This document shows, piece after piece, positions 28,841 to 64,000 of a stretch of 64,000 nt of DNA. How positions within the stretch are numbered: the first letter of the stretch is position 1; each line of letters starts with the position of its first letter. The notes under the pieces were generated by a model. It searched no databases. It had not been told where the DNA came from and worked only from the letters and a program-made list of their open reading frames with translations. Source of the stretch: Streptacidiphilus neutrinimicus (GTDB lineage Bacteria; Actinomycetota; Actinomycetes; Streptomycetales; Streptomycetaceae). The DNA is taken from positions 24,877 to 88,876 of the forward strand of contig NZ_BBPO01000018.1 of NCBI RefSeq assembly GCF_000787815.1. Direction: 5' to 3'. A program made the position numbers and the translations under genes.

Positions 28841-28859
28841 CCCCGGGGCGGAGGCAAGC

Positions 28860-28900
28860 CCAATCGTCAGCCCCTCGGGCTGACGATTGGTATAGCTTGC
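28860..28900 (+). other. oriT: Candidate oriT: inverted repeat with putative nic region
   Basis: A perfect 14-bp inverted repeat CCAATCGTCAGCCC/GGGCTGACGATTGG with a 3-nt CTC loop spans 28860-28890 and is followed at once by TATAGCTTGCTG. Known MOBP origins such as IncP have an inverted repeat just before a nick of the form TATCCTG^C, and TATAGCTTGC resembles this. It sits just upstream of mobC and the relaxase gene, the usual place. It could instead be a translational control hairpin for mobC. No nick site has been tested. Confidence 0.5.
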
Positions 28901-28953
28901 TGCCGCGCGGTGGGCGGGCGGACTGCCCGCACCGCCTGCGCCGTTGGGCGAGC

Positions 28954-29184
28954 TCAAGCCGCCATCCCGCCCCGTCGGCGGCCCGGTCGGCGTGCGTGCG
29001 CCAGGGTGTCGACCGCGAAGTCGAGGGCCTCCTCGGTGCCGTCGAGGGCGATGACCGGCCCGGTGTCCTTGCGCCGGACCAGCCACCCGCCGTCGGACTG
29101 GCGTCGGGCCACGGTGACGTGCCCGTACGCGATCAGGTGGCGCATGAGGTCGACCGCCTGCTCGGCCTTGGTGCTGCTCGGCAT
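28954..29184 (-). CDS. Small unknown protein of the mobilization operon
   Basis: The product is 76 aa from ATG 29184 with GAGGAC upstream. It reads MPSSTKAEQAVDLMRHLIAY then GHVTVARRQSDGGWLVRRKD, a compact alpha/beta protein with a basic C-terminus. It stands between DUF2637 and MobC. DNA binding near oriT is possible but not shown. Confidence 0.65.
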   Translation of the reverse strand: MPSSTKAEQAVDLMRHLIAYGHVTVARRQSDGGWLVRRKDTGPVIALDGTEEALDFAVDTLAHARRPGRRRGGMAA

Positions 29185-29210
29185 GATGTCCTCGTCTCGG
29201 AAGTAGCACT

Positions 29211-29235
29211 GTCTGGTCCGCCACGCGGACCAGAC
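29211..29235 (-). terminator. 11-bp perfect hairpin after the DUF2637 gene
   Basis: GTCTGGTCCGC, CAC loop, GCGGACCAGAC. It lies between the stop at 29247 and the start of the 76-aa gene at 29184, so it would end or attenuate the replication-operon transcript. Confidence 0.6.
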
Positions 29236-29246
29236 CGGTCTGGTCC

Positions 29247-38682: not shown

Positions 38683-38718
38683 GTCTCCCCCTTGCGTGTG
38701 ACAGTGCAGGTCAGGGTT

Positions 38719-38752
38719 GGTGGAGTCCGCCGCGTGGGTGGCGGACTCCACC
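38719..38752 (-). terminator. Terminator of the FxLD lanthipeptide operon
   Basis: GGTGGAGTCCGCC (38719-38731) and GGCGGACTCCACC (38740-38752) make a perfect 13-bp stem with an 8-nt loop, 22 bp after the stop of the methyltransferase gene at 38774. Confidence 0.8.
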
Positions 38753-38773
38753 GATATCAACCGGGCGCGGTCG

Positions 38774-40846: not shown

Positions 40847-40868
40847 CTGTGGGGTCCTTCTGTCGTGG

Positions 40869-42122
40869 TCAGGCGATGAGGAGGCAGGCGTCCCAGCTCG
40901 ATATCGGCGGGGTGCCGCTCGCGGCTTCCGTGAGCGCCAGTGCGACGCCGGCTGCGCCGTTGAGGAATCCCGGACCGGCTGTCTCGTCGTGTACCAGGGC
41001 GTTGGCCACGGCCGCCGGATCGGCTTCCGGCGGGCAGACGGCGTCCAGGAGGGCGGGTATCGCGGCGCGGAGCTGCCGCGCCGTCAAGGGGCGGGCGTCG
41101 ACGGCGGCGCGGTCGGCGATGTGAGCGAGTCCTGCGAAGCCGTGGCACAGCCCGTGGTCCGTGGTGGCCTTGAGCTGGTCGGAGTCAGGGAGCAGGGCGG
41201 CGGTGAGCGTGGTCTCGGCGTGGATCTGGCGGCGGGTGTCGCGGAGGGCCAGGGCGGCGAGTTGCTGGGCGCGGGCATGGCCGGCGGTGCCGTAGCACCA
41301 AGAGGGGCGTCTCGGCGCGGAGGGTTGGGGGCGTCCCTCGCGCGGTTCCGCGCGGGTGACCCAGTACGGCCAGGTGGCACCGGAAGGGTCGTCCTCCCGC
41401 CAGCGGTCCAGCCAGGCCAGGATCCGCCGCAGTGCGGCGTGGTGACCGCTCACGGTGTAGCCATGCCGCTTGGCCAGAGCCAGCAGCGCGAGGACGCCGC
41501 TGATGCCGTGGGCCATACCCGTGTTGCCGTGCCCGCCTGGGAAGCGCGGGTCCGGGCGGCCTGCCGGCCCGGAGTCGGTCCACCAGCCAGGCAGGTCCTC
41601 GCCGTTGACGGTGACCGGTTCGGTGAGGCGGGTGCAGTAGTGCAGCACCTTGGTGAGGGTGAGGCTGAGCGGGGCACGGTGCAGGAGGTAGGCGCCGTAG
41701 CCGACCAGGCCACGGATCGCGTCGAACTCGGCGAGTTGCGGCAGTCGACCGGCGTCGATACGGCGGTGTGCGGCGTCAAGGCGGCGTTGGACGTCGGCTT
41801 GGATCTGCCCGTCCATGCGCGCCAGGGTGCCCTGGTAGGCGCTGGGTTTGTGGTCGGCGGCACGGGCCACCGCGTGGGCCAGCGCGGGTACGCCATAGAA
41901 GGGGTGGCTGTCGGGTCCGATGGTGACCGGCCCGCTGGCGGCGGCGAGCCAATCGCGGGCGCGCTGCCACGAACTGAATCCGGCTGCGGCGCGCTCGATG
42001 TGCAGCAGCGCGATGCCCGCGGGTCCGTAGGCGAGCTGTTGCCGGTTCGAGGAGACGTCTTCGGGATCGGCGAGCAGGTCGGCGATCGTGTTCGCGACCT
42101 GGAGCGGGGCGGTGCGGGTCAC
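40869..42122 (-). CDS. lanC: LanC-like lanthipeptide cyclase
   Basis: The product is 417 aa from GTG 42122, inside the lanB stop (GTGA). It has the seven-hairpin barrel repeats (YGPAGIALLHIERAA, GGHGNTGMAHGISGVLALLA, GTAGHARAQQLAALALRD) and the zinc ligands in SWCYG and LCHGFAG. LanC adds Cys thiols to dehydrated Ser/Thr to form (methyl)lanthionine rings. Length and ligand spacing are normal. Confidence 0.93.
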   Translation of the reverse strand: MTRTAPLQVANTIADLLADPEDVSSNRQQLAYGPAGIALLHIERAAAGFSSWQRARDWLAAASGPVTIGPDSHPFYGVPALAHAVARAADHKPSAYQGTLARMDGQIQADVQRRLDAAHRRIDAGRLPQLAEFDAIRGLVGYGAYLLHRAPLSLTLTKVLHYCTRLTEPVTVNGEDLPGWWTDSGPAGRPDPRFPGGHGNTGMAHGISGVLALLALAKRHGYTVSGHHAALRRILAWLDRWREDDPSGATWPYWVTRAEPREGRPQPSAPRRPSWCYGTAGHARAQQLAALALRDTRRQIHAETTLTAALLPDSDQLKATTDHGLCHGFAGLAHIADRAAVDARPLTARQLRAAIPALLDAVCPPEADPAAVANALVHDETAGPGFLNGAAGVALALTEAASGTPPISSWDACLLIA

Positions 42123-45100
42123 GGCGTCCTCCGGGACATCCAGGCCAGGGCGGCGGCGCGGGTCAGGTAGAGGCAGATCGCTTCCTCGGGGAAGTCGACT
42201 GCCACGTGCCGCACGAAGTGGACGTGCAGCAGCGAGGACAGGACGTCGTCGAGGCGGATCCCTTGGCCGTCGGAAACGTGCAGGCGGGTCCGGTATGCGG
42301 CAAGAGCGTGGTCGCGCTCGGCCCACGCCGCGACGACGGCTTCCCCGCCCGGTGCGCCGCGCAGCGCGGCCCAGTCATCGGTCGGGTCGGCGAGCCAGAC
42401 CGTCTCCCTGAACTGCGGGCGCGGTACCGGGCCTGGGGCGACCGCGAGGATGTGGGTGGACAGCCAGCGCATGGCGGCCTTGGTGTCGCCAAGGAAGGCG
42501 GCGGCGATGGCGATGGTCTGTGCGGCCACCAGAGCGCGCTGCGGCGGGCGTTGCCGCTGGGCAAGAAGGCCCAGGACTGCGCGGGAGTCGGCGCGGAACA
42601 CCTCCTCTGCTGCCGTCCAGGCGGCTCCGGAGCCCCAGCGTCCCATCTCGCGGTACGAGGTGGGGAGACGCAGGTCCGACAGCAGTCCGGCCGCACGCAG
42701 CTCGTTGGCCCAGGTGCCGATGGTTCGGGCGGTGTCGGCGAAGGCGTCAGGGTCGGGCAAGGCGATGCGCAGCCGCAGGTGGTGCTGGGGGTCACGGAAG
42801 CGGATGAACCACCACGGCGGGCTGCCGAGACGATCGAGCAGGTCGGGAAGGTGTTCGGCGAGGAGGGCGTCCTGCCGGCGCAGGTCTCCGTAGAGGGTGG
42901 CGAGCAGCAGCGGGGAGACGCCCGGGGTCTGGACCTGCGCGGCGGAGAACCTGCGCGCGGGGCTCGGTGTCGGCAGCTTCGGCCAGGCCGGTGGGCGGAC
43001 CGCAGTGAGCGGCACGACGACTTCGTGCGCCCGGCCCCCACACCAGCCGTAGGCGCTGGCGTCCGGGGTCTCCAGCAGTACCGCGACGCCAGCGCGGGAC
43101 AGGTACTGCCGCAGCAGCGTCCGGTGCGGCCCCAACCCCAGGTCCAGCAGCAGACGCTGATCGCCTTCGGCCAGGAGGACCCGCTGCGGGAGACGCCGCC
43201 GGGTGCGCCAGTCGTCCAGGGCGGCGTCCCACCGGTCCTGCAGGCGATCACGACCGGGCAGCTCGGCGGCCTCCAGCCGCCACCGAGCCGGGGCGAGCAC
43301 CGTTCGGCCGTGGCGCACCCTGGGCAGGAACGGCATGGCGCTGGCCGCACCCCAGTCAAACATGGTGACCTGGGCGGCCTGAGCGCGGGAGAGCTCGATC
43401 AGGAACCGGGCCAGGGGCGGTGTGTGCTCGCGCAGGTTCAGCGCGTTCATCCCCACGGCCTCGATTCGCTGGCTGCGTTCGGGGGCGGCCAGGTACATCC
43501 GGCGGCCGTCGCAGGCCACGGCCAGGTCCGCGGGGGTGAGCACGTCGCAGCGAGGGGCGCGGTGTTCCTGGACGCTGATCACGGTCGGCAGGACCTGCGG
43601 GGTCCGGGTGACGTGGGCGCTGCCGGGGTGAAGCGGAGGGAAGGACATCTGTGCGGCGATGGTGCCGGTGTCCGCGGCGGGAAGCTCGGCCAGTTCGACT
43701 TCGAGGCGGGCGCGGTCCTCCGGGGTCAACACGGTGAGGAAGCGGCCGATGGTGACGCCGAGGCCCCTGGAGACGCTCGTCATCTCCAGCTGGAATCGTC
43801 CGCGTTGCAGTTCCTCGGCGCTGGCTGCGTGGATACGGACGCCGACCTCAAGATGGGGCGGCAGGCGGGGCGTCTCTGGGCCCAGGTCCATCGCCGCGAT
43901 CAGGTCGTCAGTGAGGAGCACTTCGTCGCGGCCGTCAAGGATGGCGGCCTGCGCGGCGCGTAACAAGGCGTCGTCCCTCGTCGAGACGCGGGACCGTCGT
44001 CCGTCGCTGGGAGTGCCCGGGTATCCGTCGGGCAGGCCGATGCCGCTGTCAGCGACGACCTCGGCGAGCGGCACCATCGTGCCGATTCCGAAGGTCTCGT
44101 AGAACCGGCGCTGGTATGCCTTCCACGCGGCGGTGCCGTAGGGCAGGGGGCTGACCCGGGCCAGGACGGCAGCGGCACGTTCGATCTCGTAGGCGACGTT
44201 CTGCGGCACCTCGACGTCGGCGCTCAGACGCAGGTCGAGCGCGAGAGGGTGGCGGCGCAGTCCAGGGACGGCGGCCCGCATCCGTGCGGCGGCGCGGGCC
44301 CGGCCGCTCCTCGTGTCGCAGCCGCGCAGGTCCCGCTGTACCGCGCCCAGTTCACGAACGAGGTCGGCGACGGGTGCGACCGCGCCGGCACGGGCGGCGT
44401 CGAGCTGGGCCAGCAAGTAGTCCAGGGCATCGGTCTCGGTGCTGGGTGCGCGCAGATTAGTGATCAACACCCTGTGCCGGATCAGCCCTTGGATGAGCCG
44501 CTGGGCACTGCTCCCGTCGGCGTCGGGGAACTCTGCGATCAGCTTGCCCGCGAGAGCGCCAACGCTGATGGGTGCCTGCGCCGCATCCAGAACGGCCCGG
44601 ACCGGCGGGGTCAGAGACATGGATGCCTCAACGGCCCTGCGCCGATCGTTGTCGGTGTTGGACTCGTAGGGCACGATCAGCCGTCCGCCGCGCACCTGCA
44701 CGGTGTTGCTGACGAGCACCGGCAGGCGCTCCACCAGCTCAGGGCAGGCCTCAAGCCGCTCGACCACGGCGTGCAGCCACTCCGCGCTAGCTCGCGCGAG
44801 AGCATGGTGTTCTGGTCCCCACGTCGCTCTGGCGCGCGGTCCGACGGTGGCCGTAGTGACGCCGGCGAACAGACCGAACGGCGTTGCCCTCTGCTCGGCA
44901 CGCAGGGCATACCGGGCCACTGCGGCGACCGCGCGGCGAACGTCGCGGTCTGGTGGGGCGCTGGAGGAGAGCAGGCCACGCACCTGCGAGACGAGGTCCG
45001 GGCTGGCGTGCTCCAGGGCCTCGGTGAAGTCCGTCCCCGTCCAGACAGCACGGAGCCAGCTCAGGCGCGTCTCCGCGCTGAGAGGGGACGGGTCATCCAG

Positions 45101-50120: not shown

Positions 50121-50768
50121 ATGGAGACTCTGGAGTGGATGCAGGAGCTGACGCGCCGGGTGGGGGCTCAGGTGGCAGCCCAGCGCAAGCGGCTTGGCTG
50201 GACCGGGGCGGAGCTGGTCGGTGCCTGTCAGGCACTGGGGTACAGCAAGCTCTCTGCCTCGGCGGTGTCGAAGATCGAGACTGGTGGCCGCGACGGGTTG
50301 ACGCTCGCCGAGCTGCTGGTATTGGCCGAGGCACTGGGCGTTCCCCCCGTTAGCCTCGTCTTCCCGTTGTCCGGCGGCGATGTGAACAAGACGCCAGTCA
50401 AGAGCGTGACGGCCTGGGAGGCGGCCTCGTGGTTCACCGGGGAGGAGCCGTTGGAGGAACCTGCTGGCGAGGGTACGCCTCGTGGGGATCTGGAAGATCA
50501 TCGCAGCCATGTCCTCTCCGTCCAGGCCGCCGTGCAGAGCGACCGCCTGGCCAGCGAGCGGCGGCGCCTGGCCTCCCGAGTCGAGGACCCCGAGCAGCGG
50601 GACCTGGCGCAGGAGAACGCAGCGGCCTTCGAGCAGATCGCCAGGAAGGACTGCCTGGCGTTGGGGAGGCTGCGGGACGACATGCGCCGTCGCGGCCTCA
50701 GCCCTTCTCCCCTGCCCCGTGAGATCGCCTGGGTGGACGACTCGGACTCCGGCAGGAGCGGCCGATGA
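50121..50768 (+). CDS. XRE-family regulator upstream of the integrase
   Basis: The product is 215 aa from ATG 50121. The HTH is RRVGAQVAAQRKRLGWTGAE and KLSASAVSKIETGGRDGLTL, followed by LLVLAEALGVPPVSLVFP. The C-terminal 110 residues are charged helix. The stop overlaps the integrase ATG (ATGA), so it probably controls integrase and, on the other side, xis. Confidence 0.85.
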   Translation: METLEWMQELTRRVGAQVAAQRKRLGWTGAELVGACQALGYSKLSASAVSKIETGGRDGLTLAELLVLAEALGVPPVSLVFPLSGGDVNKTPVKSVTAWEAASWFTGEEPLEEPAGEGTPRGDLEDHRSHVLSVQAAVQSDRLASERRRLASRVEDPEQRDLAQENAAAFEQIARKDCLALGRLRDDMRRRGLSPSPLPREIAWVDDSDSGRSGR

Positions 50769-52291
50769 GTGACACCGGCGTGGAGCGCAGGTGCACCTGC
50801 CGGATACCGGGCACCCGGCGCGCGTACGGCTCGCAGTGCCCCAAGCTGAGCAATCGTCGGCACGGCACGTGGCGGGCACGGCTGACGCTGTACCCGGCGA
50901 CGGACGGGCGGGTCCGCCGCTTCGCCCGCCAGGGCTTCGCCAGCAGCACCGCCGCCGGAGAGTTCCTCGACGCCGTGCGCGCGCTCATGAGCGTCCCGGC
51001 CAAGGAGGACGCGGATGCGCGGACTGCCATCAGCGATCTCCTGGAGGAGTGCTCAAAGACCGGTGGTCCTCTGCCCGAACTGACCGAGATCACCCGAAGG
51101 TACGCGGTCCGGGTGAAGTTGACCGATGAGGTGACCGTCGGCGACTGGCTCGACCAGTGGCTGGAGGGCAAGGCGGCACTGCGGCGGACCTCCCGCAGCA
51201 GCTACGAGGGGCACGTCCGCAACCACCTCAAGCCGCACCTGGGCCACCACCGCTTGGGCAAGCTCGAAGTGGTCCATGTGGAGCAGATGTTCGCGAAGAT
51301 CACCGAACAGAACGCGGCGATCCTGCTGGCCAACGCCGAACGCGCAGCGGTGCGTGACAGGCTCAACGCGACGCCGAACAAGGGAGCGGCACACCGGGCG
51401 CTCCGGAAGGAGCTGCGCGGGCAGCTCGCCGGCTTGCCACCCTTCCGTCGCATCACGGACGTGGCCACCCAGCACAGCATCCGCCGGACGCTGCGCGCAG
51501 CGCTCAACGTGGCGATCCGCCGACAGATCATCCCGAACCTGAACGTCGCCAGCCTCACGGAACTGCCCGCCCCGAAGCCGCGGAAGGCTGTCCTGTGGAC
51601 ACCGGAGCGTATCCGAGCCTGGGAGAAAACAGGAGTTCGGCCGTCACCGGTCATGGTGTGGCCGCCGCACCTAATCGGCCGCTTCCTCGACGGCATCGCC
51701 GACCACCGCCTCTACACTTTCTTCCACCTCATCGCGTTCCGCGGCCTGCGCCGAGGCGAAGCCTGCGGTGCCCGGTGGACCGACCTGGACGAGGAGAACG
51801 CCTCGCTCAACGTGGCAGTTCAGTTGGTGCAGGACGGATGGGACGTCTACGAGGGGATCCCCAAGACCGAAGCCGGCAGCCGTGACGTGGCGATGGACAC
51901 GGAGTCGATGTCCCTCCTTACACGACAGAGGGTGGTCCAGCGGGACGAGTTCGTCGCCCTCGGCCTGGACCCTGCGGATGCGGTCAGGATCTTCACCGAC
52001 GAAGACGGGAAAGAACTGCACCCAGGCAAGATCACCGATCTGTTTGAGCGGCTGATCGCGTCGCTCGGCCTGCCCCCGATTCGCCTGCACGACCTGCGGC
52101 ACTGCGCTGCGACCCTGGCTCTCGCTGCCAACGTCGACATCAAGATCGTCTCCAAAATGCTCGGCCACAGCTCCACCACCATCACCCGCGAGATCTACGG
52201 CACCGTCCTCCGGGAGCTGTTCCACGCGGCGGCCGAAGCCGTCGTCGCCTTGGTCCCCCGGGCCAGGCGAGCAGGCGTGGCGGGCGCCTAG
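50765..52291 (+). CDS. int: Tyrosine recombinase (integrase)
   Basis: The product is 508 aa. It has a Cys-bearing N-terminus (RRCTCRIPGTRRAYGSQCPK), an arm/core-binding region (LDQWLEGKAALRRTSRSSYE, HVRNHLKPHLGHHRLGKLEV), and the catalytic domain with FRGLRRGEACG (Arg I), RLHDLRHCAATLAL (HxxR), KMLGHSSTTITREIYG (His and the nucleophile Tyr). This is the long type of actinomycete integrase that uses tRNA 3' ends. It points toward the att site at 57.4 kb. The IS982 element begins immediately after its stop; TAG is within the CTAG target duplication. Confidence 0.95.
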   Translation: MSDTGVERRCTCRIPGTRRAYGSQCPKLSNRRHGTWRARLTLYPATDGRVRRFARQGFASSTAAGEFLDAVRALMSVPAKEDADARTAISDLLEECSKTGGPLPELTEITRRYAVRVKLTDEVTVGDWLDQWLEGKAALRRTSRSSYEGHVRNHLKPHLGHHRLGKLEVVHVEQMFAKITEQNAAILLANAERAAVRDRLNATPNKGAAHRALRKELRGQLAGLPPFRRITDVATQHSIRRTLRAALNVAIRRQIIPNLNVASLTELPAPKPRKAVLWTPERIRAWEKTGVRPSPVMVWPPHLIGRFLDGIADHRLYTFFHLIAFRGLRRGEACGARWTDLDEENASLNVAVQLVQDGWDVYEGIPKTEAGSRDVAMDTESMSLLTRQRVVQRDEFVALGLDPADAVRIFTDEDGKELHPGKITDLFERLIASLGLPPIRLHDLRHCAATLALAANVDIKIVSKMLGHSSTTITREIYGTVLRELFHAAAEAVVALVPRARRAGVAGA

Positions 52292-52310: not shown

Positions 52311-55300
52311 TCAGTGGTCATAGGCGGTCAGTGAGCGTGTGACTGGCGCGCCGATCTGGTTGTTGTGCCAGATGCCGGTGGTCATCGCCAGGATGCGCTG
52401 GGCGACCCGGATCGCGACGCCCTCGAAGGTCCGCCCGCCGTGTTGTTCCAGGTCGAGCTGCCCTTTGAGGGTGTCGTTGACCGACTCGATCAGCTGGCGG
52501 ACCTTCTTGAGCATGGGCTCGCCGTAGCGCTTCTTCTCGCGCTTGAGCGAGGGCCGCAGCAGCTCGATGCCGAGCTCGGCGAGCTCCTTCTCGAACGTCT
52601 TCGAGGCAAAGCCCTTGTCCGAGACGAGCAGCACGCCCTCGCGGCGGGCGACCAGCTCGGCGTCGACCTCGAGCATCGCGGCCAGAACCTCGCGCTCGCC
52701 GATCTTCGGGTTGGCCAGTGCCCACATGATCGGCATGCCGGTCGGCGTGCAGACCAGGTACAGGCGCAGGCCCCAGAAGAAGCGGGAGTGGGAGGCGCAG
52801 TAGCCGTATCCCGCCCAGCCGGCAAGGTTCGAGCGCTGGACGGTGGGGCGCGACATGCCGCACGGCACCGGGGTGGAATCGGTGAGCCACACCGTGTCCG
52901 TCCAGAAGTCGCTGTCCCGGGCGAGTTCCCGGATCATGCGCTTGACCAGCGGCAACGACGCACGGAGGCGCTTGTTGTAGCCCGCTCGCTGCGGCAGGTA
53001 CGGGAACATCCCGCACAGGTGCTTGCGGGCGTAGCGCAGCCAGCGGGCCTCGGAGTGGTAGCCGAGGAGCGCTTGCGCCACCGCGAGACAGACGAGTTCG
53101 GAGTCGCTGAGCAGGGGCGGGCGGCCCATCCACCGCGTCCCTCCGATCTCGTCGGTGAGGTAGGCCCGTGGGCGCGGTGCCGACGTTTCCGTCGGTCGTC
53201 TCCCTCGGGCCCCCTCCCGCACCCGGCGTGCGAATTACTCCGCACCGGGCGCTCCACGTGTCTTGACCGCCGGTCAGCCGCTTGCCGGGGCGGCTGCTGG
53301 TTTCGAGGGCCATGGGGTCGGGATATCACTGCCGCGGTAGCGGTAGCGTTCCACCGTGACGCTGGCCGCGCCGGTGAAAACGACCCCGTTGTAGGCGAAG
53401 CGCCATCCCCTGTCGCAGAAGCGGTTTCGCATTTCCTTCATCCCGAGCCGGTGCTTCCCTGTGTACTTGGCACGGATCCAGCGCATCAATCGGCACCAGG
53501 TGTGATGGTCGACTGAGGCGAAGACCGCCTTTGACACTCCGTATCGAAAGAAGTTCGCCCATCCCGCCAGGGTTCGGTTGAGGCTGCTCAGCAGTTCGTC
53601 CAGTTCCATATGGCGGGTTGATCTGTACGTTTGCTCCCTCACCTTATCCTTGATCGACGCGATGGACTTCTTGGAGGGTTTGGTGTAGACGTAGTGCTTC
53701 GCGGTTCCTCGTTTCCGCTGGCGGCGGATATTGTGCCCGAGGAAGTCGAAGCCCTCGTCGATGTGGACCACTCGGGTCTTCTCAGGTGCCAGCCGCAGCC
53801 CCAGTGGGGCGAGCACGACCGCCACTTCCTCGCGCAGGGCCTCGGCATGGTGACGGTTTCCCGATACCACCAGAACGAAATCATCCGCATAGCGGATGAT
53901 TCGCCAGTTGCCAAGGCCGTCCTTCTTGCGCTTGGACCGCCGGTAAGGTGTCCCCATATCGCGGCGCCACTGCTGGTCGAAGTGATCGTCCAGCGCGGAC
54001 AAAGCGATATTGGCGAGCAGCGGCGAAAGAATCCCTCCCTGTGGAGTCCCCGTCAGCGACTCTTCCCGATTTCCGAGTTCGGTGAGGATCCCGGACTTCA
54101 GGAACGCCTTCACCAGCCCGCAGATGCGCTTGTCCTTGATCCTTGTCCGGAAGCGGTTCATCAGCGCCGTGTGATCAATCTCGTCGAAACAGGCTTTGAT
54201 GTCGCACTCCAGTATCCAGTGATAATCCCTGGATCCGGAGGCCAGATAGTGAATCTCGGCGATGGCGTCATGTGCGCGCCGTTTCGGGCGGAACCCGTAC
54301 GAGCACGGCTTGAAGTCCGCCTCGAAAATGGGCTCGAGCACTGCTTTCAGGCTTGCCTGGACCACGCGATCTGTGATGGTGGGAATCCCGAGTTTCCGGA
54401 ATTTCCCCGAACTCTTCCCTTTCGGGATCATCACCTGTCGCACCTCGGCCGGACGGTACTCGCCTGACTTTAGCAAGTCCCGGAGCCGGGCCAGGAAGAC
54501 ATCGACCCCGACCCAGGTTTCGACCATGGGTGCTGTGACCTTGTCGATTCCTGCTGTCTTGGCGCCCCTATTGGTGGACACGCGTTGCCACGCAGCCCTA
54601 AGGAACGCCGGGTCGTGCACCAGATTGAACAGATCATCGAAACAGCGGCCGGGTTCCTCGGCCGCCCAGCGGTGCAACTTGCTCTGCATTCTCCGTACCG
54701 CGATCTCAGCCGAATCTGCATCCGGCCATGACGCGGCGCCGGTATTCACCGGCGCATCTCCGGACATTACATGCACTCCTTGTCTGACACGCTGCCGCCC
54801 TTCTCCATGTGCTCGGGCTTTCCCCGGCTCGAAGTACTACGGCGGCTCCGCCCCCTCCGCACCTTCGGCAGACGTCGCACCTATCCCACCGACCGTCCCT
54901 GGAGGGGAAAGGCGGCAGGAACGCGTGCGGATGGTTCCCACGTTCCCTGTTGTCCGATCGACGGGTTAGGCACCCGGCTTTACCCCTGCGGCGTCGTCAC
55001 GACTACTGCCGTAGACAATTCACCGTGACCTCCCGATTCGGACATCGAAGACCCTTGTCGGAAGTTCCTCGCCGCCACTATGAGTGGCGAGTGCGCACCG
55101 CGATCCAGCCCGCATCCACCGGGTTAGAGCTGGCACGTGATCAAGAGGCGTAACGCAGCCGGTTCCTCGCGTATACCTTCCCGTCTCGCTCACCACGCCC
55201 GGTCCATCCGGCAGTGCTGGACCGTCGCGACTTTGTCGAGGCTGCTCCCGCCGTCCCCGGCGACTCCCGGATCCGACTGCCTCCAGCTTCACCCCACCGC

Positions 55301-55541: not shown

Positions 55542-57038
55542 TCAGCGGCGATCTGCCAGAACCGGGTCAGTCGGCTCGATCGCCACGTACGTCTCGGCCG
55601 TCCTCGACTCCAGCAGGCCGCCCCGGTCCTCAGGACGCTCCACCGCGTAGCGCGTAGCTCGCAGGAACCCGGCGGGCACCTCCTCGGCCGCGTAGGCGCG
55701 GGTCATCTCCCGTGTGGCCGTCACCAGCCGCTCCTCCTCGCGCTCATAAAAGGTGCGTCGTGCCTCGCGGGTCATCTCCTCGCGCTCCTCATCCTCCCCA
55801 CGCCGTGTGAGGAAGGGGTCAGCAGGAAACAGGGGCTCGTCCGCCGGCACCTCCGCCTGCGCTTGGTGCAGGCGCGCGCAAGCCGCGTACAGGCCACGCG
55901 ATAGGCCCAGATGAAGACCAATTCCGGGGATACGCCCGACCACGAACTCCCTAACTCTCGAACCCTGCTGCTCCCGAGCCCACTCAAGAGGAATCCCGCC
56001 CAAGACCATCTCGCGCAGCTCACGAGTAGCGACGTCCCCTTCAAGTGGCCTCAGCCTGCCCTCCCGCCCGAGCGGCCCATCCCACTCCGCTCCCGTCTCT
56101 GCGAGCGGGACGACCCGCAGATCCTGCACCGCCCCGAACGCCAGGGCCCGGAAGACGAGCAGTTGGTCCCGCGCCACGCGGAGCAACTCGTCGGGGGACT
56201 CATTCAACGGAGGTGCGCCTCCTCCACTCGGCGGGTCCGGCAGGGAGTGAATACCGCCGCCCGAGGATGGGCCGACGAGAGCGGTGTGCACCATCATGAC
56301 GAGGTGGTCGTCCTCCCATCGGCCCGACTCGGGAAGTACCGTTCCGCAGAGCACCTGACGGTGCGGGACTGCAATCTCAGCCGTTGCCTGATCCAGTTGC
56401 CACTGCCCGTCGCGCATATCGCCTGCGCCCAGCGCCTTACGCGCCTTGGCCTCGATCAGCCAAGGCAACGCCTCGACAGCGTGGTTACCGTAGAGATCCG
56501 GGAGCTTCTTCGTCGGGTCCGCCAGTTCAGGGATCCCGCACGCCTCCAAGTGCACCGTGGCCGGCAGCCCCGCCATTCCGACCGTCAGCCACTGAGCCAT
56601 CGTCATGCCGAGGTGGTAGCCGAAGGCCGCGTGGGCACTGCGCTCCGTGCCGTGCCGGTAGATGGCGTTCACAAACAGGCGGCGCCCTGCTGCCTCCGCA
56701 GGTGCCTCGACGTCCTTGAGCGAGAGATACGCCTGCAGCGGGCTGACGCGGGCGATGAGTTCGTTGACAGCGAATGCCGGCGTCTTGCGCAGCCAGGGTG
56801 CCAAGTCGCGGCCAGCGCTGGTCGCTGCCGTCAGGAGCTGGCGCCACGTGGTTGTGACCAGGTACTCGCCGTCCGCTGGCAGCTTCCCAGCGGCCGGCCA
56901 GGGCAGCACGGCCTTGGGTGCCTTCCGTCGGTCCCACTTCGCCAGGACTCCGTCGGAGCGCACACGTACCGGGATGTCGACGGCATCGGCCAGGGAGAAG
57001 CTGAAGTCCATCGCATTGGGAGGAGGGATCATCGCCAT
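55542..57038 (-). CDS. Unknown 498-aa protein with a nuclease-like E-x-K motif
   Basis: ATG 57038 starts MAMIPPPNAMDFSFSLADAV. Near residue 205 is LPDLYGNHAVEALPWLIEAK, which has the look of a PD-(D/E)XK core (D...E-x-K), with SAHAAFGYHLGMTMAQWL before and WQLDQATAEIAVPHRQVLCG after. The C-terminal 100 residues are charged helices (TREARRTFYEREEERLVTAT). It is the only gene between the integrase/IS and the att site and next to a BREX locus, a common cargo position. Nuclease function is inferred from one motif. Confidence 0.7.
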   Translation of the reverse strand: MAMIPPPNAMDFSFSLADAVDIPVRVRSDGVLAKWDRRKAPKAVLPWPAAGKLPADGEYLVTTTWRQLLTAATSAGRDLAPWLRKTPAFAVNELIARVSPLQAYLSLKDVEAPAEAAGRRLFVNAIYRHGTERSAHAAFGYHLGMTMAQWLTVGMAGLPATVHLEACGIPELADPTKKLPDLYGNHAVEALPWLIEAKARKALGAGDMRDGQWQLDQATAEIAVPHRQVLCGTVLPESGRWEDDHLVMMVHTALVGPSSGGGIHSLPDPPSGGGAPPLNESPDELLRVARDQLLVFRALAFGAVQDLRVVPLAETGAEWDGPLGREGRLRPLEGDVATRELREMVLGGIPLEWAREQQGSRVREFVVGRIPGIGLHLGLSRGLYAACARLHQAQAEVPADEPLFPADPFLTRRGEDEEREEMTREARRTFYEREEERLVTATREMTRAYAAEEVPAGFLRATRYAVERPEDRGGLLESRTAETYVAIEPTDPVLADRR

Positions 57039-57340
57039 GACGGGAGCCTGCCAGACCCTGCCCAGTCGGGTGCGAGCTGGGGCGTCAGTCGGACGCCGCC
57101 TCCGCGGGGCTCGGGCCCTTTTGTAGCTTCCCTCTCAACGGCTTAGGCGAACCAGGTTGACCGCCCATTGCCGCCAGTGCCGTACGGCTGGGCCACGCGA
57201 GCGCGCTCCCAGCCGCGCAGATCCCCGTTCAGCTCGCCTGTGCCAGCCGCCCCGACCGCGTCTCGCCCGCAACCAGGAGTTGCTCGCGGCGGTGCGCCAG
57301 AGCTACTGAATCGCGCATCGTGGTCAGCCTCTGCACCGAC

Positions 57341-57361
57341 CGGTACGCCATCGGTACGCCA
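57341..57361 (+). repeat. Putative integrase arm sites, left
   Basis: CGGTACGCCA occurs twice (57341-57350 and 57352-57361), spaced one helical turn apart, 82 bp left of the tRNA-like core. Confidence 0.55.
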
Positions 57362-57442
57362 GTACACAATTCGGGCGGGCCTGGAACGGCCTCCAGACGC
57401 ATAAGGCCCAGCTCACGGGGCATGAGCTGGGTCTTAGTCGCG

Positions 57443-57486
57443 TGGGGCGCGTGGGGCTCGAACCCACAACCTACGGATTAATAGTC
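57443..57486 (-). other. att: Putative att core: 3' half of a tRNA gene
   Basis: On the minus strand the 44 nt read CTATTAATCCGT (anticodon loop and stem), AGGTT (variable loop), GTGGGTTCGAGCCCCAC (T arm) and GCGCCCCA (acceptor end). The 5' half of a tRNA is absent on the right. Long actinomycete integrases recombine within such tRNA 3' ends. In a tRNA-directed integration the side 5' of the fragment (higher coordinates, BREX) is element, and the side 3' of it is chromosome or a second element. Confidence 0.7.
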
Positions 57487-57666
57487 AAGAACCGCGAAGC
57501 GGGTCATCGGCCCGGGCGATCCCACTCGGTCCCGTCTGCGCCCGATAGTCCCACCAGATCCCAGATCTGGCTGCTCAGGGGCTACTCAATACCCGACCTG
57601 GCGACCCGGCGCGCGCCAAGTCCGTCTCATTCGTTGCTGTCGTTCGCCGATCGTCCCAAGGCGTCC

Positions 57667-57686
57667 CGGTACGCCAGCGGTACTCC
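57667..57686 (+). repeat. Putative integrase arm sites, right
   Basis: CGGTACGCCA (57667-57676) then CGGTACTCC (57678-57686), in the same orientation and with the same 11-bp step as the left pair. Confidence 0.5.
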
Positions 57687-57709
57687 CGCAGTCCTCTTCC
57701 GGCGAAGCG

Positions 57710-59872
57710 CTACTCGTCACCAGACAGCACAAAACGCACCGGCTCGGCTAGTACCTTCACCGCTCCAGCCTCGTCAGCGGCGCGCACGGCCAGGGTGGCT
57801 TCAGCCAAGCGCTGCGGAAGCGCATCTGCGAACTTGAGTCCACGGACCGCGCGAACGTCGACCTCGGGCAGGCACAGGGCTGACTCCGCCTCGGCCCGAG
57901 CCTTCCGCCACTCCGGCAGGCCGATCTCGTCGCGGAGTCTGATCCAGAGGTCACCGGTCCGCTGATGCGGGGAGACGACACCCGAGAGCGAGGCCGCCAG
58001 GGTGGCGTTGGCTCGGTGGCCTGCCCAGGTCCACCAACGGACATCGCCCTGCGAGGACCTTGTGATGAGCGTCCCTCCCGGGTGGATCGTGGACAGCAGT
58101 GTCTCGCGTCCTTCGGCGAGCTTGGCCTTGGCCCTGTTCGTCAGCCTCACCGGTGGATTGTCCCCGAGCAGAACATCGCGGGCGGCCCGGGCGAGGGTGA
58201 AGGAGCGAACGCGTTCCCCACCTCCGTTCCAGCGAGCCCGGCCACCGCCGTCCACGGATTCGACGAAACAGCGTCTCCGCTTCCAGTCGATGTAGGTCAC
58301 CAGCCAACTGCGGCCGGCGAGCAGAAGCTTGCGCGGACCTTCCACTTCCTCGGTGAGCAGGTCGGGGTCTGTGCGGCCGAGCTCGGTCCTGCCGTTGAAG
58401 ACAGTGAACTCCGGAGGGGCAGTGAACACTGCCGTTAGGTTCATGAAGTGCCGGTGACCGTAACGGCGTTCCGCCTCCGGCCCGATGAAGAGCAGCCCAC
58501 CGTCGCGGTCCAGATACCCCTCCTCGACGAGGTGCCGGACGATCGGTCCGGCCCCTGGACCGAACGGGCCGACACCGCCGAACCACTCCCGCCACAGATT
58601 CTCACCGACCCGGTGCTCCTGCAGGCAGAGCGCGAGGAGCTGCTGCGCAACCAAGTGCCGTGGCTCCTTCGGCGGGACGACCGGCTCCACCCAGCCGCGC
58701 GACCACTGCAACAGCAGGGCCGAGGCTTCCAACAGCCCGGTCTCGGTGGTGGCGAGGAACAAGCAGTTGCGTGCTGTGCCAGACCGGCGCCCAGTCCGGC
58801 CCAGCCGCTGCAAGAAGGAGGCCACCGTGGCAGGAGCGTCGATCTGCACGACGCGATCGAGATCGCCGACGTCGATGCCCAGTTCCAGGGTGCTGGTGGA
58901 GACGATCACACAGTCCCGCGCATCGGCGAAAGCAGCCTCCGCGCGCCGCCGCTCGTCCACCGAGAGCGAGGCGTGCGAGAGGAACGTGGTGACGCCCTTC
59001 AGGCGCAGTTGCTCTCCGAGTTCCTCGACAGTGCGCCGACTCTCACAGAATACGAGTCTCTTCTCCCCTCGGTGCAGGGCCGCGATCACCGTCGCCGCGT
59101 TCGCCACCGATCCGACGTAGTCGAGCTCCACCTCTCCGGCGGGGCGGGGCGCCGGCACGGCGGCGCCTCCCGCTGCCGGAGCCGGTTCAGCGCTGGTGAG
59201 CACCCCAGGAGCGATCACTCTGGCCGGTCGGCGGCCCTCGCCCGATCCTTGGAGCCAACCCAGCAGGTCGTGAGGGTTACCGATCGTGGCGGAGAGACCG
59301 ACTCGCTGCAGCGGCCGACCGGCGACCCGGCTGAGTCGTTCCAGTACCGCCAGCAGATGCCAGCCGCGGTCGTCACCGGCGAAGGCGTGGACCTCGTCGA
59401 CCACTACCGCGTGAAGCCCGGAGAAGAACGCCTGGTGATCGACGTGGACACTGACGAGCATCGACTCCAAGGACTCCGGAGTGGTGAGCAGGATGTCCGG
59501 GCGCCGCGCCAGCACGGCACGGCGCTTGGCGGTGCCGATGTCGCCGTGCCACAGCTCGGCGGTCCTGCCCAGCCATCCCGCATACGTCTCCAGACGCGGG
59601 TGCAGGTTGTTGAGCAATGCCTTGAGCGGGCAGACGTAGAGCACGCTGGTGCCCTTCCACCCGCGTCGGTTCATCCGGGTGAGCAGCGGGAAGACGGCGG
59701 CCTCCGTCTTCCCGCCTGCGGTCGGGGCCAGGAGCAGCGCGTCCTCCCCGTCCGACACGGGCTGCACTGCCTCTTGCTGAAGCGGGCGCAGCGTCTGCCA
59801 CCCAAGGGAGTTGACGAGGTGGTGACCGATCATGGGGTCGAGCCGATCGGCTGCCTCGGCCGGGTCGGTCAT
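57710..59872 (-). CDS. brxHI: BREX-2 DEAD/DEAH-box helicase (BrxHI-like)
   Basis: The product is 720 aa from ATG 59872. Motif I is LLLAPTAGGKTEAAVFPLL, the DEAH-type box VVVDEVHAFAGDDRGW, motif III LSATIGNP, and motif VI FLQRLGRTGRR, with an Lhr-like C-terminal half (GRTELGRTDPDLLTEEVEGP). BrxHI is the Lhr-type helicase of BREX type 2 (Pgl-derived) systems that stop phage replication. It overlaps brxD by 4 bp and ends the operon near the att region. Confidence 0.88.
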   Translation of the reverse strand: MTDPAEAADRLDPMIGHHLVNSLGWQTLRPLQQEAVQPVSDGEDALLLAPTAGGKTEAAVFPLLTRMNRRGWKGTSVLYVCPLKALLNNLHPRLETYAGWLGRTAELWHGDIGTAKRRAVLARRPDILLTTPESLESMLVSVHVDHQAFFSGLHAVVVDEVHAFAGDDRGWHLLAVLERLSRVAGRPLQRVGLSATIGNPHDLLGWLQGSGEGRRPARVIAPGVLTSAEPAPAAGGAAVPAPRPAGEVELDYVGSVANAATVIAALHRGEKRLVFCESRRTVEELGEQLRLKGVTTFLSHASLSVDERRRAEAAFADARDCVIVSTSTLELGIDVGDLDRVVQIDAPATVASFLQRLGRTGRRSGTARNCLFLATTETGLLEASALLLQWSRGWVEPVVPPKEPRHLVAQQLLALCLQEHRVGENLWREWFGGVGPFGPGAGPIVRHLVEEGYLDRDGGLLFIGPEAERRYGHRHFMNLTAVFTAPPEFTVFNGRTELGRTDPDLLTEEVEGPRKLLLAGRSWLVTYIDWKRRRCFVESVDGGGRARWNGGGERVRSFTLARAARDVLLGDNPPVRLTNRAKAKLAEGRETLLSTIHPGGTLITRSSQGDVRWWTWAGHRANATLAASLSGVVSPHQRTGDLWIRLRDEIGLPEWRKARAEAESALCLPEVDVRAVRGLKFADALPQRLAEATLAVRAADEAGAVKVLAEPVRFVLSGDE

Positions 59873-61200
59873 GGGAGCTCCAGCTCGACGTCCCCGGCAC
59901 TGCTCGCCGCGTTCAGCTCGGCCTCGTCGAGTTCGCCGCGCCGCACCGTCAGGGCGTAGTGCCGCCGCGGTTCGAAGTCCTCGAACTCGTCGACCCGGTC
60001 GAGCACGTCGGCGACCAGCTTGCGCAGATAGAGCCGGGGCGCGATGCCGACCCGTCCGCCCAGCGCACCCGTGACGGCCTGTGCGAGCTCTGCGAGGTAG
60101 CCGTCGTCGACGCGGGCAGCCAGTCGCTCAGGGTGCCGGGCGCCTCCGGCGTAGACGTCCCGCGCACGTCGTCCCAGCTCGATCAGCGACTCGGCGTCGA
60201 AGCCCGGCAGGCGCAGTTGGACGGCGCGCGGTGAGTCGAACCGTGGATCGGTGGTGAAATCGGTGGCCAGCCGTTGCGCGAGGGGCGCGAGTCGCTGCAC
60301 TCCCTGTTGGCCCTCGTAGAAGGCAGGCGTACCGGTGATGACGAGAAAGAGACCGGGAAAGCGCCCGGCGTCGATCTCGTCCAGCAGTTGGCGCAGTGCG
60401 TTGAGCGACTTCTCCCGCACATCGCCGCGCACTCGCTGGAGGGTTTCCACCTCGTCCAGCACCAGCAGCAGGCCCGGGTGCCCGCAGTCGCGCAACACGG
60501 TCAGCAGACCCTGGAGGAAGCCCAGCGCGGCGAAGTGGTCGAGATCACCGCGGACTCCTGCGGCCCGCTTCGCCGAAGCAGCGACCGATCGTTGGCCCGC
60601 AAGCCACGCGATGAGCGCCTCGGCCGCGGCGCCGTCCCCCGACGCCACGGCGCGCCGGTAGCCGCGCAGCGCCGCGGAGAACGCCGGGGTCGTCCGGGCC
60701 ACCTCGGCGAGGCGGCGCTCCAGGAGCTCGTCGACGGCCTTGGCCAGAGCAGCTTCGTCGTCGTCCGCAAATGTGCCGTCGGCGAGTGCCTCCTCCTCCA
60801 GGGCGTAGAACCACGAGTCGATCACCGGTCGCAAGGCGGAGGGCTGGTGAGTGGCTGTGGTGAGCCGTTCCACCAACCTCCGGTAGACCGTCTCCAGGCG
60901 GTGCAACGGCGTCTCGGTCTCGGAGATCTGCACCTCACTGACGGCAAGCCCCCGGCGTTTCGCACGCTCCGCGAGCCAGCGGGCGAAGAAGGTCTTGCCC
61001 GCACCGTACTCGCCGCGCAGCGCGTGGAAGGCCGAGCCGCCTCGGGCCACGGTGGCGAGGTCCTCGTCGAGTGCGGTCTCGAAGCGGTCGAGGCCGACCG
61101 CGAGCAGGCCGAGCCCGGTCTGCGGCACTGTGCCTCGGCGCAGGGCGTCAACGATGTCCCGCCTGCGCGCCGCGCTGATCTCCGGGGTCGGCGTGCTCAC
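59869..61200 (-). CDS. brxD: BREX system ATP-binding protein BrxD
   Basis: The product is 443 aa from GTG or ATG near 61200 (MSTPTPEISAARRRDIVDAL). Walker A is RGEYGAGKTFFARWLAERA, Walker B LLLVLDEVETLQRVRGDVRE, then LFLVITGTPAFYEG, the pattern of BrxC/BrxD AAA+ ATPases (DUF2791-like). It lies between pglZ and brxHI with 4-bp overlaps on both sides, the order known for type 2 BREX. Confidence 0.9.
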   Translation of the reverse strand: MSTPTPEISAARRRDIVDALRRGTVPQTGLGLLAVGLDRFETALDEDLATVARGGSAFHALRGEYGAGKTFFARWLAERAKRRGLAVSEVQISETETPLHRLETVYRRLVERLTTATHQPSALRPVIDSWFYALEEEALADGTFADDDEAALAKAVDELLERRLAEVARTTPAFSAALRGYRRAVASGDGAAAEALIAWLAGQRSVAASAKRAAGVRGDLDHFAALGFLQGLLTVLRDCGHPGLLLVLDEVETLQRVRGDVREKSLNALRQLLDEIDAGRFPGLFLVITGTPAFYEGQQGVQRLAPLAQRLATDFTTDPRFDSPRAVQLRLPGFDAESLIELGRRARDVYAGGARHPERLAARVDDGYLAELAQAVTGALGGRVGIAPRLYLRKLVADVLDRVDEFEDFEPRRHYALTVRRGELDEAELNAASSAGDVELELP

Positions 61201-63983
61201 GCGTCGACCTCCCCTGCTGCCTCCGTACTGGGCGCGCTGAGGAACTGTTGCTCCAGCAGTTCCTTGTCGAGGTTGACCACACGCCCGGCCTCAGCGAGCT
61301 GAAGTACGGGGTAGGCGTCGACGTTGAGCAGCCGTTCCAGAATCGTGGCGAACCGTTCGGGGTTCCGCTGCGACTTCCCCGTGGCCGCCTCGGCCGACGC
61401 GGCCACAGCCGCCGGTGAGAGCCGCCCTCCTGCTGCCAGCAGCGCGTCCAGGGCGGCGGCGACGGCCTTGTCCTGTGGGGCCAGTCGGACGAACTCCCGC
61501 TGTGCCCTGTAGATGCTGGACTGGATCACCTGCTGCCCGCGGGTGACCGCACCCGAGTGAGCGGCAGTGGCCTGGCTGCTCCCTTCCTGTGCGGGGGCGG
61601 ACGCCGTCATCTCGTCGACTGCAGCGAGCTCTGCTCCACCGGAAGGGCCGGCTCCGACGACGACATCGCGTGCGGACACGCCGTCACCTCGCCACCACGC
61701 TGGCGCGACCTGCTCCAGTGGCACCAGCGTCCAGCCGGCAGGAACATCGACGCTGGAGGGCACGACCGTGATGACCGGAACGGTCACCTCGGCCAGGGAC
61801 GCACCACCGTGGTAGCCGGCCTGCCGTGCCGTGTAGCGCAGGTCCTCCCTCCAGGCGGCCGTGACTCGCCCGTCCCCGGCGAGCACCCGCGGGCCGGTCA
61901 ACTCGACCTCGCCCTCACGCGCCGGGCCGACCCGCCAGCGGGCCCCGCCGACCCCCGTGACGGCAGGTTGTTGGTGATCACGGGGCGTGCGGTCCAGGAC
62001 ATGGCCGTGATCAGAGACGAGCACGACCGGCCGACCGTGGTCGCGGGCCGCGTTCAGCAGGTCCTGCAGCTTGGCGACGTCTCTGATCCCCCACCGCGCC
62101 CGTGCGCCCTCACGACCGTCGTCGAGCGCGTCGTCGATGGTGTTCAGCACCACCGCGACCACGTCCTCGGAGGCAAGGGCCTCCTGAAGGGCGGGGTCCA
62201 GCCGGTGCCCCGGAGCGCCCTCGTAGTCGCCCTTGTGGAAGAGGCGTGCACCGCGGCGGCGCTTCTTCCAGAACGCGCTGAAGCCTGCCTGCTCAACGCT
62301 CTGGCCGCCTTCGGCTCGCCGGCCGCAGAGCAGGGACGTCCGGCTGATCTTGGTGAGCGACGGCAGCATCGACACGGCTGCCTGCCGCAGGTGCGACTCG
62401 CCCCGCTCCGACCTGGGCACGATCTCGGTCCAGATCCTCGGATCGAGTTCACCCGCCAGTTGGACGGCTACGTCGACGCTCATGCCGTCGAGGACCAGGA
62501 CCAGCGGTCGTCCCCCGTCCAGGGCCAGCGGCGCCACAGTCCTGGCCAGCACGTCCTCGATCAGCAGTGCGCCACCGGGCGCCTGCTGCGAGGCATGCTC
62601 CGCCCACACGGCCAGCAGCGGGACGAACCTCTCGTCCACACGCCGACGACGTGCGCGGGCCGCTCCTATCAGACGGTGGTACGCCTCCCCGACCGTGGTG
62701 TCGCGCGAATCGTCGCCCTCGGCAAGAACCGTCATCGCCAGGTCAACCCATGCCGTCTGGGCTAGATGGGCCGAGACCGCCTCGGCCACCGAGTCCGCCT
62801 CCGGCAACGGCTCCTCCAGCCAGCGCCGCAGCCGCACCGCCGCAGATGCCTTCTCGGTGGACTCGACATGAAGGAACGAGAGCTGATGCTCAATCAGCTC
62901 CTCGAGCGCCCTGCTTGCCTGCGCAGCGGGACCGTCGAGCGTCGCAGCGAGCGCGCGCAGCCGCCCCCGGTATCCCGAGGGAAGCAGCCCGTCCAACCCG
63001 ACCAGCGGAGTGAGTCTGACCTCCGCGGCAAGGGCGTCGGCCCGTTCCAGGACGTCCAGGACGCGGCGGCGGTTCTCCTCGCGCTGTGGGCCGCCCCCCT
63101 CGGCCTGCGCGATCCAGCGCGCGAGCACACCACTGGCGGCGGCGGCGAAGGGACGCAGGGCCTCGAAGGAGTCGAGCGCGGAGCCGAAGAGCGTGCCCAG
63201 CCCGAAGCTGGCGGCCTCGGCCGCTGGCGAGGAGAGAGCCCTGGCCGCCAGAGCGCCCAGGGGCAGGGCGTCTGCGCCGCGGCCCCCGGCCGCCAGTGCC
63301 AGGAGCGTGGGCGCGGCCGGTCCGATAGCCTGCGCCAGCCAGTCGCTGAGCCCTGCACGCTCGGCGCCGGGCAGTGCGGCGAACCGCGTGGGCCCGCCTG
63401 GCGTGCGAGTCCAGGCGAACAAGGTGTCCGCATCGGTGTCCAGTGCATCGGCCTGGATATCACCTAGGCCGAGACGGACCGCGAGCAATGCGCACAGGGC
63501 TCGGTCTCTGGTGAGTACGGCTCCCCCGCGTGGCCAGCCGTCCAATGGCTCGGCTTCCAGCAGGGCATCGAGCAGCCAGCTCTCTCCCACCATACGGGTG
63601 TCCAGATCGGCGACCCCGAACAGTTGCTTCACGATCTCGGCGCGGTCGACGGCGAGCGGTCGTCTGCCGACCGCGTGCGCCCGGAGATCCCACCCGAGCT
63701 GGTCCGCGGGGACTGTGCCAGTCACCACGAGGACGGCGCCCTCGCCCCTGCCCGACCGCGAGCGGTGCTCGTGCCATGCTTCGACGACGCCGAGCGGGGA
63801 GTCCTGGTTGGTGACCCGCACCCGACGCTGCCCGCCCCCGACGCGGACGGTGAACTCGGAGTCCGCGTCCGAGCCCTCGTAGACGGCGTCGACGAGGACG
63901 AGGTCGCAGCCCTCGGCCTTGGTCAGCTCGCCCTGCAACAGCGCCTCCAGGGCGCGCCGCCCGGCGGTGGGACGCGGGGGCAT
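61197..63983 (-). CDS. pglZ: BREX-2 phosphatase PglZ
   Basis: The product is 928 aa from ATG 63983. The alkaline-phosphatase-like core holds RPLVLVLDGMSVDVAVQLAG (metal site), PSLTKISRTSLLCG (nucleophile region), VVAVVLNTIDDALDDG and VVLVSDHGHVLDRTP. The N-terminal 450 residues are specific to PglZ. PglZ is the common marker of all BREX systems; this type, with BrxD and BrxHI, is type 2 as first known from the Streptomyces Pgl phage-growth-limitation locus. The start shares a base with the preceding stop (TGATG). Confidence 0.92.
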   Translation of the reverse strand: MPPRPTAGRRALEALLQGELTKAEGCDLVLVDAVYEGSDADSEFTVRVGGGQRRVRVTNQDSPLGVVEAWHEHRSRSGRGEGAVLVVTGTVPADQLGWDLRAHAVGRRPLAVDRAEIVKQLFGVADLDTRMVGESWLLDALLEAEPLDGWPRGGAVLTRDRALCALLAVRLGLGDIQADALDTDADTLFAWTRTPGGPTRFAALPGAERAGLSDWLAQAIGPAAPTLLALAAGGRGADALPLGALAARALSSPAAEAASFGLGTLFGSALDSFEALRPFAAAASGVLARWIAQAEGGGPQREENRRRVLDVLERADALAAEVRLTPLVGLDGLLPSGYRGRLRALAATLDGPAAQASRALEELIEHQLSFLHVESTEKASAAVRLRRWLEEPLPEADSVAEAVSAHLAQTAWVDLAMTVLAEGDDSRDTTVGEAYHRLIGAARARRRRVDERFVPLLAVWAEHASQQAPGGALLIEDVLARTVAPLALDGGRPLVLVLDGMSVDVAVQLAGELDPRIWTEIVPRSERGESHLRQAAVSMLPSLTKISRTSLLCGRRAEGGQSVEQAGFSAFWKKRRRGARLFHKGDYEGAPGHRLDPALQEALASEDVVAVVLNTIDDALDDGREGARARWGIRDVAKLQDLLNAARDHGRPVVLVSDHGHVLDRTPRDHQQPAVTGVGGARWRVGPAREGEVELTGPRVLAGDGRVTAAWREDLRYTARQAGYHGGASLAEVTVPVITVVPSSVDVPAGWTLVPLEQVAPAWWRGDGVSARDVVVGAGPSGGAELAAVDEMTASAPAQEGSSQATAAHSGAVTRGQQVIQSSIYRAQREFVRLAPQDKAVAAALDALLAAGGRLSPAAVAASAEAATGKSQRNPERFATILERLLNVDAYPVLQLAEAGRVVNLDKELLEQQFLSAPSTEAAGEVDA

Positions 63984-64000
63984 CAGAACAGGCCTCCGTG
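63983..64000 (-). CDS. Last codons of the gene upstream of pglZ (probably pglY)
   Basis: Only HGGLF and a TGA stop are inside the window. In type 2 BREX the ATPase PglY precedes PglZ, so pglY is expected, but the identity rests on context alone. Confidence 0.5.
   Translation of the reverse strand, partial: HGGLF

Follow-up and report, generated by a model that had tools for sequence, protein, structure and literature searches.

A type 2 BREX system in a CIME-like element that probably shares a tRNA-Lys attachment site with an ICE-type element in Streptacidiphilus neutrinimicus

The site analysed here, at positions 57341-57686 of the window (the whole 64,000-nt stretch, equivalent to C167:24877-88876 on a 117.6-kb contig of an 8.4-Mb draft genome in 184 contigs), is very probably an internal chimeric attachment junction, to judge from its sequence and that of its surroundings. 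At this junction an ICE-type element (E2) would adjoin a CIME-like element with a BREX system (E1), the two having accreted at the 3' end of a single tRNA-Lys(UUU) gene. The features on which this reading is based are as follows, in window coordinates unless the contig is named.

1-57441, no strand: the part in the window of the ICE-type element E2, which runs from the distal core C167:2804-2848, as delimited by the cores
57292-57441, plus strand: P (integrase-side) arm of E2, with doublet sites 57341-57350 and 57352-57361
57442-57486, minus strand: middle core, a tRNA-Lys 3' half and putative E2/E1 chimeric internal attachment site, with A for T in the anticodon loop relative to the other two cores
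57487-57702, plus strand: far (P') arm of E1, with doublet sites 57667-57676 and 57678-57687
57442-64000, no strand: CIME-like BREX element E1, as delimited by cores and gene content, continuing beyond the window to the intact tRNA-Lys gene C167:105084-105157

In minus-strand sense the window core reads GACTATTAATCCGTAGGTTGTGGGTTCGAGCCCCACGCGCCCCAC and starts at the anticodon arm of tRNA-Lys, matching the intact gene over 45 nt with one mismatch (A for T at anticodon position 34), 40 nt of which are exact. ARAGORN found no tRNA in the window, and the Rfam tRNA match of the core is sub-threshold (21.1 bits against a cutoff of 29) with a scrambled 5' half, confirming the description in an earlier note on this DNA of a tRNA 3' half without its 5' half. 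That note had proposed a genome-wide search for an intact tRNA gene and further cores, and exactly two more copies exist. A pattern search (<=3 mismatches) finds the core exactly three times genome-wide, each time on C167 and with the same orientation (2805-2845, 82319-82359, which is the window copy, and 105085-105125), and a shorter 23-nt query (<=2 mismatches) recovers the same three. The third core sits inside the intact tRNA-Lys(UUU) gene (anticodon TTT), at the far end of the BREX island. Since this tRNA lies on the minus strand and insertions at its 3' end run to lower coordinates, the three cores bound two elements: E1 at 82.3-105.1 kb of C167 (22.8 kb, gap-free), and E2 at 2.8-82.3 kb (79.5 kb), which contains one 195-N scaffold gap (C167:24682-24876) just left of the window. 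The same polarity agrees with the earlier placement of element DNA on the BREX side of the core. The joining of the left third of E2 through the scaffold gap counts against our main reading.

Comparison of the contig with itself yields, besides a copy pair of a cold-shock gene near its left end, two top matches, both of which include the core. Sequence to the left of the window core aligns with that to the left of the intact tRNA at 77% identity over 229 columns (the P arm of E2 against that of E1, C167:104934-105083, outside the window), and sequence to the right of the distal core aligns with that to the right of the window core at 73% identity over 275 columns (the far arm of E2, C167:2849-3077, also outside the window, against that of E1). 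This pairwise homology is the pattern that two related elements in tandem must give. The window core accordingly resembles an attP because it is a chimeric junction, composed of the E2 P arm, the core and the E1 far arm.

The arms also share short repeats. CGGTACGCCA is exact at 57341, 57352 and 57667, with a fourth copy at 57678 that carries a mismatch (CGGTACTCCC), such that the repeat pairs previously noticed on both sides of the core stand on the left, where both copies are exact, whereas in the right pair the first copy is exact and the second degenerate. Lone 10-mers that match with one mismatch turn up often by chance. The 11-bp-spaced doublet, however, is confined on the 117.6-kb contig to the arms of the elements (5 matches, spread over 4 arms) and appears in 0 of 60 first-order Markov shuffles, a control that rules out chance as the source of the repeats. 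In both P arms the GGTACGCC doublets, which repeat every 11 bp, are found at -100/-89 relative to the core; the positions of such sites are +226/+237 in one far arm and +228/+239/+250 in the other. A terminator-like hairpin (57403-57436) falls within the E2 P arm, which is directly adjoined by a 498-aa ORF (55542-57038, minus strand) with no match in Pfam, PADLOC, NCBIfam or PDB.

The principal genes of E2 in the window are:

5300-7102, plus strand: VirD4/TraG-type coupling protein (Pfam PF12696, PF02534)
26611-28332 and 28322-30070, minus strand: relaxase-like protein (relaxase by Pfam) and MobC-like protein, respectively
38774-44767, minus strand: lanthipeptide genes (LanB-type dehydratase, LanC-like cyclase, Lant_dehydr_C-PCMT fusion)
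50121-50768, plus strand: helix-turn-helix protein directly upstream of the integrase gene, kept with it in Kitasatospora
50765-52291, plus strand: tyrosine integrase, 508 aa (Pfam PF00589, PF14659; R, HxxR and Y motifs readable)
52311-53129, minus strand: IS transposase (DDE), between the integrase gene and the P arm
53155-54689, minus strand: group II intron (reverse transcriptase/maturase 53274-54689; catalytic RNA domain 53155-53254)

The content of E2 is that of an ICE, with an integrase, att sites at both ends, a relaxase, a coupling protein and a VirB4-like protein (an NCBIfam match below curated cutoffs), together with SCO6880/6881-family proteins and a DnaB-type protein. Identification as an AICE is not supported, a T4SS-type set being present, and no FtsK/TraB match was found in the part of E2's genes that was scanned. 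The integrase belongs to E2, on the side of the core opposite to BREX, as the earlier note had it, and in sequence both its reading frame and its catalytic motifs are intact. It is separated from its arm by the IS and the group II intron, which counts against our main reading. The lanthipeptide genes form part of a class I-type cluster (37570-44767) in which a dehydratase C-terminal domain is fused to a PCMT methyltransferase, and related lanthipeptide genes adjoin the related integrase in Kitasatospora sp. MBT63 (L048:2576-8005). Two further minus-strand genes of E2 encode a protein with a PADLOC match to PD-T7-3 in its N-terminal part (21327-22736) and a protein with an Mrr-type endonuclease domain (19799-21190), both of which are possible additional defence genes.

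In E1, the following genes were identified:

57710-59872, minus strand: brxHI (PADLOC BrxHI, 1049 bits, profile 3-695/698)
59869-61200, minus strand: brxD (PADLOC BrxD, 690 bits)
61197-63983, minus strand: pglZ (PADLOC)
C167:88859-104564, outside the window: pglY, pglX, PDC-M28C/B/A and pglW (PADLOC)

Outward from the window core the order is brxHI, brxD, pglZ, pglY (BrxC-PglY), pglX, PDC-M28C, B, A and pglW. The type 2 BREX set is complete (pglW, pglX, pglY, pglZ, brxD and brxHI), with six profiles matched nearly end to end, and apart from BREX and PDC-M28 there is almost nothing between the two arms. A search of E1 for integrase similarity gave no signal, and transfer genes are absent too. 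Relatives of BrxHI occur in 84 of 394 family genomes; at the threshold used, none was detected in 13 genus relatives. PDC-M28A, B and C are three PADLOC candidate-defence genes (C167:96806-100199, outside the window), and the trio lies inside the type 2 BREX locus both here and in 6 of 9 related BREX loci (L090-L101), sometimes in the opposite orientation, which suggests that it is a recurrent companion module of type 2 BREX. None of the nine related loci inspected is an equivalent arm-bounded cassette. Two candidates were rejected: at G275:C191:487-790 (L090), BREX starts 227 bp after an intact tRNA-Ala with no tRNA-end repeat on the contig, and in G309 a degenerate tRNA-Met half lies 437 bp beyond brxHI and has no partner in the stretches read.

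The nearest integrases outside this genome are those of two Kitasatospora strains (54% identity, with the same HTH-int pair), which face tRNA-Thr, not tRNA-Lys; there the tRNA end is preceded by a hairpin as well as by an 11-bp doublet (GAATGTCCACC). That these nearest relatives face tRNA-Thr counts against our main reading. A 34.5-kb circular record from Streptomyces sp. NBC_01335 (NZ_CP108372.1) contains phage structural genes and an integrase 38% identical to that of E2, adjoining a tRNA-Lys core. Its attP is laid out as doublet, hairpin, core and doublet, as at the window site, and its doublets differ in sequence and, measured from the T arm, are at -95/-84 and +186/+197, as against -111/-100 and +215/+226 in the window. 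Given this shared layout, a real circular attP of this integrase group looks like the window site. From the layout of NZ_CP108372.1 and the conservation of sites in E1 and E2, we infer that the E2 integrase probably reads the GGTACGCC sites. NZ_CP108372.1 was deposited as a Streptomyces plasmid, yet its gene set (terminase, portal, capsid, tail, integrase) and its tRNA-Lys attP give it the look of a circular phage or an excised prophage.

Related genomes provide occupied and less occupied versions of the site. In relative G006, the sequences flanking the array (C167:1-2103 and C167:105077-107706) align to a single contig, where they are separated by 2.2 kb and accompanied by one intact tRNA-Lys, and CCGAACGATCA, which directly follows the distal core on C167, likewise follows the tRNA. 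In G008 the flanks are again on one contig, 3.3 kb apart. Neither is a perfectly clean empty site, given the 2.2 and 3.3 kb between tRNA and flank, and this counts against our main reading. In G010, two cores at this tRNA enclose another, different interval of 30.7 kb. G009 shows three cores around tRNA-Lys genes; beside one of them is a far arm with 82% identity to that of E2 over 307 nt, in which three GGTACGCC sites lie. The occupancy patterns of these four genomes indicate that tRNA-Lys is a recurrent insertion site. Two of the three cores in G009 (G009:C1:8972654-8993560; L040, L041) are called as whole tRNA-Lys genes, and the middle one has the far arm of E2 directly beside its 5' half, as if the attP of that element contained an almost whole copy of the tRNA. 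Elsewhere, a search of 394 family genomes, viral contigs and plasmids for the same arms returned at high similarity only the G009 far arm, along with NZ_CP108372.1, which has a different motif. The DNA search for the arms scored no more than two candidates in each genome and overlooked the P arm of E1 itself, and is hence not exhaustive; within that scope, no second copy of E1 with arms was found in the 394 family genomes.

In the proposed arrangement the two elements lie head to tail. Along the plus strand, it runs from the chromosome through the distal core, the E2 far arm, the body of E2 with int, and the E2 P arm to the core at 57442-57486, and from there through the E1 far arm, brxHI to pglW, and the E1 P arm to the core in tRNA-Lys and the chromosome. 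The E2 integrase would bind the GGTACGCC doublets and recombine pairs of cores, releasing E1 alone, E2 alone, or E1 and E2 as one circle, which would let BREX move along with E2 in cis. Between the two outer cores 48 nt are identical, whereas either pairing with the window core includes the mismatch at anticodon position 34. As the block common to the cores starts in the anticodon arm, strand exchange is likely to occur in the anticodon loop; if so, joint excision of E1 and E2 is predicted to be favoured, as only pairings with the middle core carry the anticodon-loop mismatch.

The earlier note had left two options, tandem elements or an unresolved attP. The former is supported by the three co-oriented cores, the intact tRNA-Lys, the arm homology (77% and 73%) and the G006 flanks 2.2 kb apart. 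The latter, in which a single element would have the window core as its own unresolved or internal attP rather than a junction of two elements, we consider extremely improbable, even though doublet arms on both sides recall the attP of the circular record NZ_CP108372.1: every arm is matched by a homologous one at the other end of the adjacent element, the two outer cores are both there, and a single element needs two arms where four are present, which refutes it unless the scaffold is wrong. The attP-like appearance is explained away in that two elements sharing an attachment system rebuild such a site at their internal junction.

Other alternatives accept two elements and differ in what became of them or where E1 came from. 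It is possible, if somewhat doubtful, that E1 and E2 inserted in tandem and are now an immobile fossil, with a damaged integrase region and a mutated middle core. The IS and group II intron between int and arm, the middle-core mismatch and the absence of an integrase from E1 are all consistent with this, but the integrase frame and catalytic motifs remain intact, the arm doublets are kept at exact offsets, and no mismatch separates the outer cores over 48 nt. A different origin for E1, as a compact integrase-less BREX satellite rather than a decayed ICE, its arms being kept so that related ICEs can pick it up in cis or in trans, seems unlikely: its compactness, with little besides BREX and PDC-M28 between two arms, and the retention of doublets at exact offsets in both arms despite 23-27% divergence from E2 would suit such a satellite, but the searches described above revealed neither a second armed copy nor an equivalent arm pair at the nine related loci. 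We think it improbable that E1 is a satellite movable by any ICE with a matching integrase, alone or as a composite, with the middle-core mismatch biasing it towards co-transfer.

The tandem of an ICE-type E2 and a CIME-like E1 accords with the definition of CIMEs as elements that have lost integration and transfer genes but retain attL and attR, and that can be mobilised in cis by a neighbour (PMC5704250). E1 retains a core at each end and its two arms, whose doublets sit at the offsets seen in E2, and is without integration and transfer genes, whether lost or never present. Joint transfer of ICE-CIME tandems has been observed (PMC5704250). The toxicogenic region at aviX1 in Streptomyces scabiei includes TR1, a CIME of 20 kb, and the neighbouring ICE TR2 (Zhang and Loria 2017, as presented in PMC8369830), and each part or the whole can excise at the internal att site. 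As in E1/E2, a ~20-kb integrase-dependent CIME adjoins a large ICE with an internal att site between them, although the target there is aviX1 instead of a tRNA gene and the cargo a toxin cluster instead of BREX, and the mobility of E1/E2 is predicted. On the evidence of its sequence, E1 thus fits a CIME accreted onto an ICE, with mobility like that of TR1/TR2 as a plausible consequence.

Among streptococcal ICE-CIME and ICE-IME tandems, composite and single excision are known, and the S. agalactiae tRNA-Lys composite resembles our array in its accretion at a tRNA-Lys 3' end and its chimerical internal att site; it belongs to another phylum, and the att sites of its two elements are unrelated, whereas the arms here are 73-77% alike (PMC5704250). 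AICEs and DAICEs have accreted at tRNA-Arg in a Streptomyces population, where identical direct repeats at a single tRNA gene enclose several elements and decayed members are proposed to move in cis, but these are TraB-type AICEs, in contrast to the VirB4/VirD4/relaxase-type transfer genes of E2 (PMC9513070). In Streptomyces coelicolor, the Pgl system lies in GI-4, a ~30-kb laterally acquired island for which no tRNA or flanking repeats are listed (PMC1934918); type 2 BREX (Pgl) genes in an island are common to both, while the boundaries of E1 are exact. Islander distinguishes anticodon-loop from T-stem sites and requires each tandem member to have its own integrase, and would therefore not count E1, which has a tRNA fragment without an integrase, as a separate island (PMC4383910). 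In the literature searched, coverage of which is incomplete, we found no precisely bounded type 2 BREX element like E1.

E1/E2 is clearly a new case of the known ICE-CIME arrangement, with BREX as cargo; of interest are the precision of its boundaries, how little else it carries and a testable bias towards co-excision. It offers a base-level view of a complete type 2 BREX system in an integrase-less element that keeps both attachment arms beside an ICE. If co-excision does occur, this would constitute a route by which large defence operons could spread among Streptomyces relatives.
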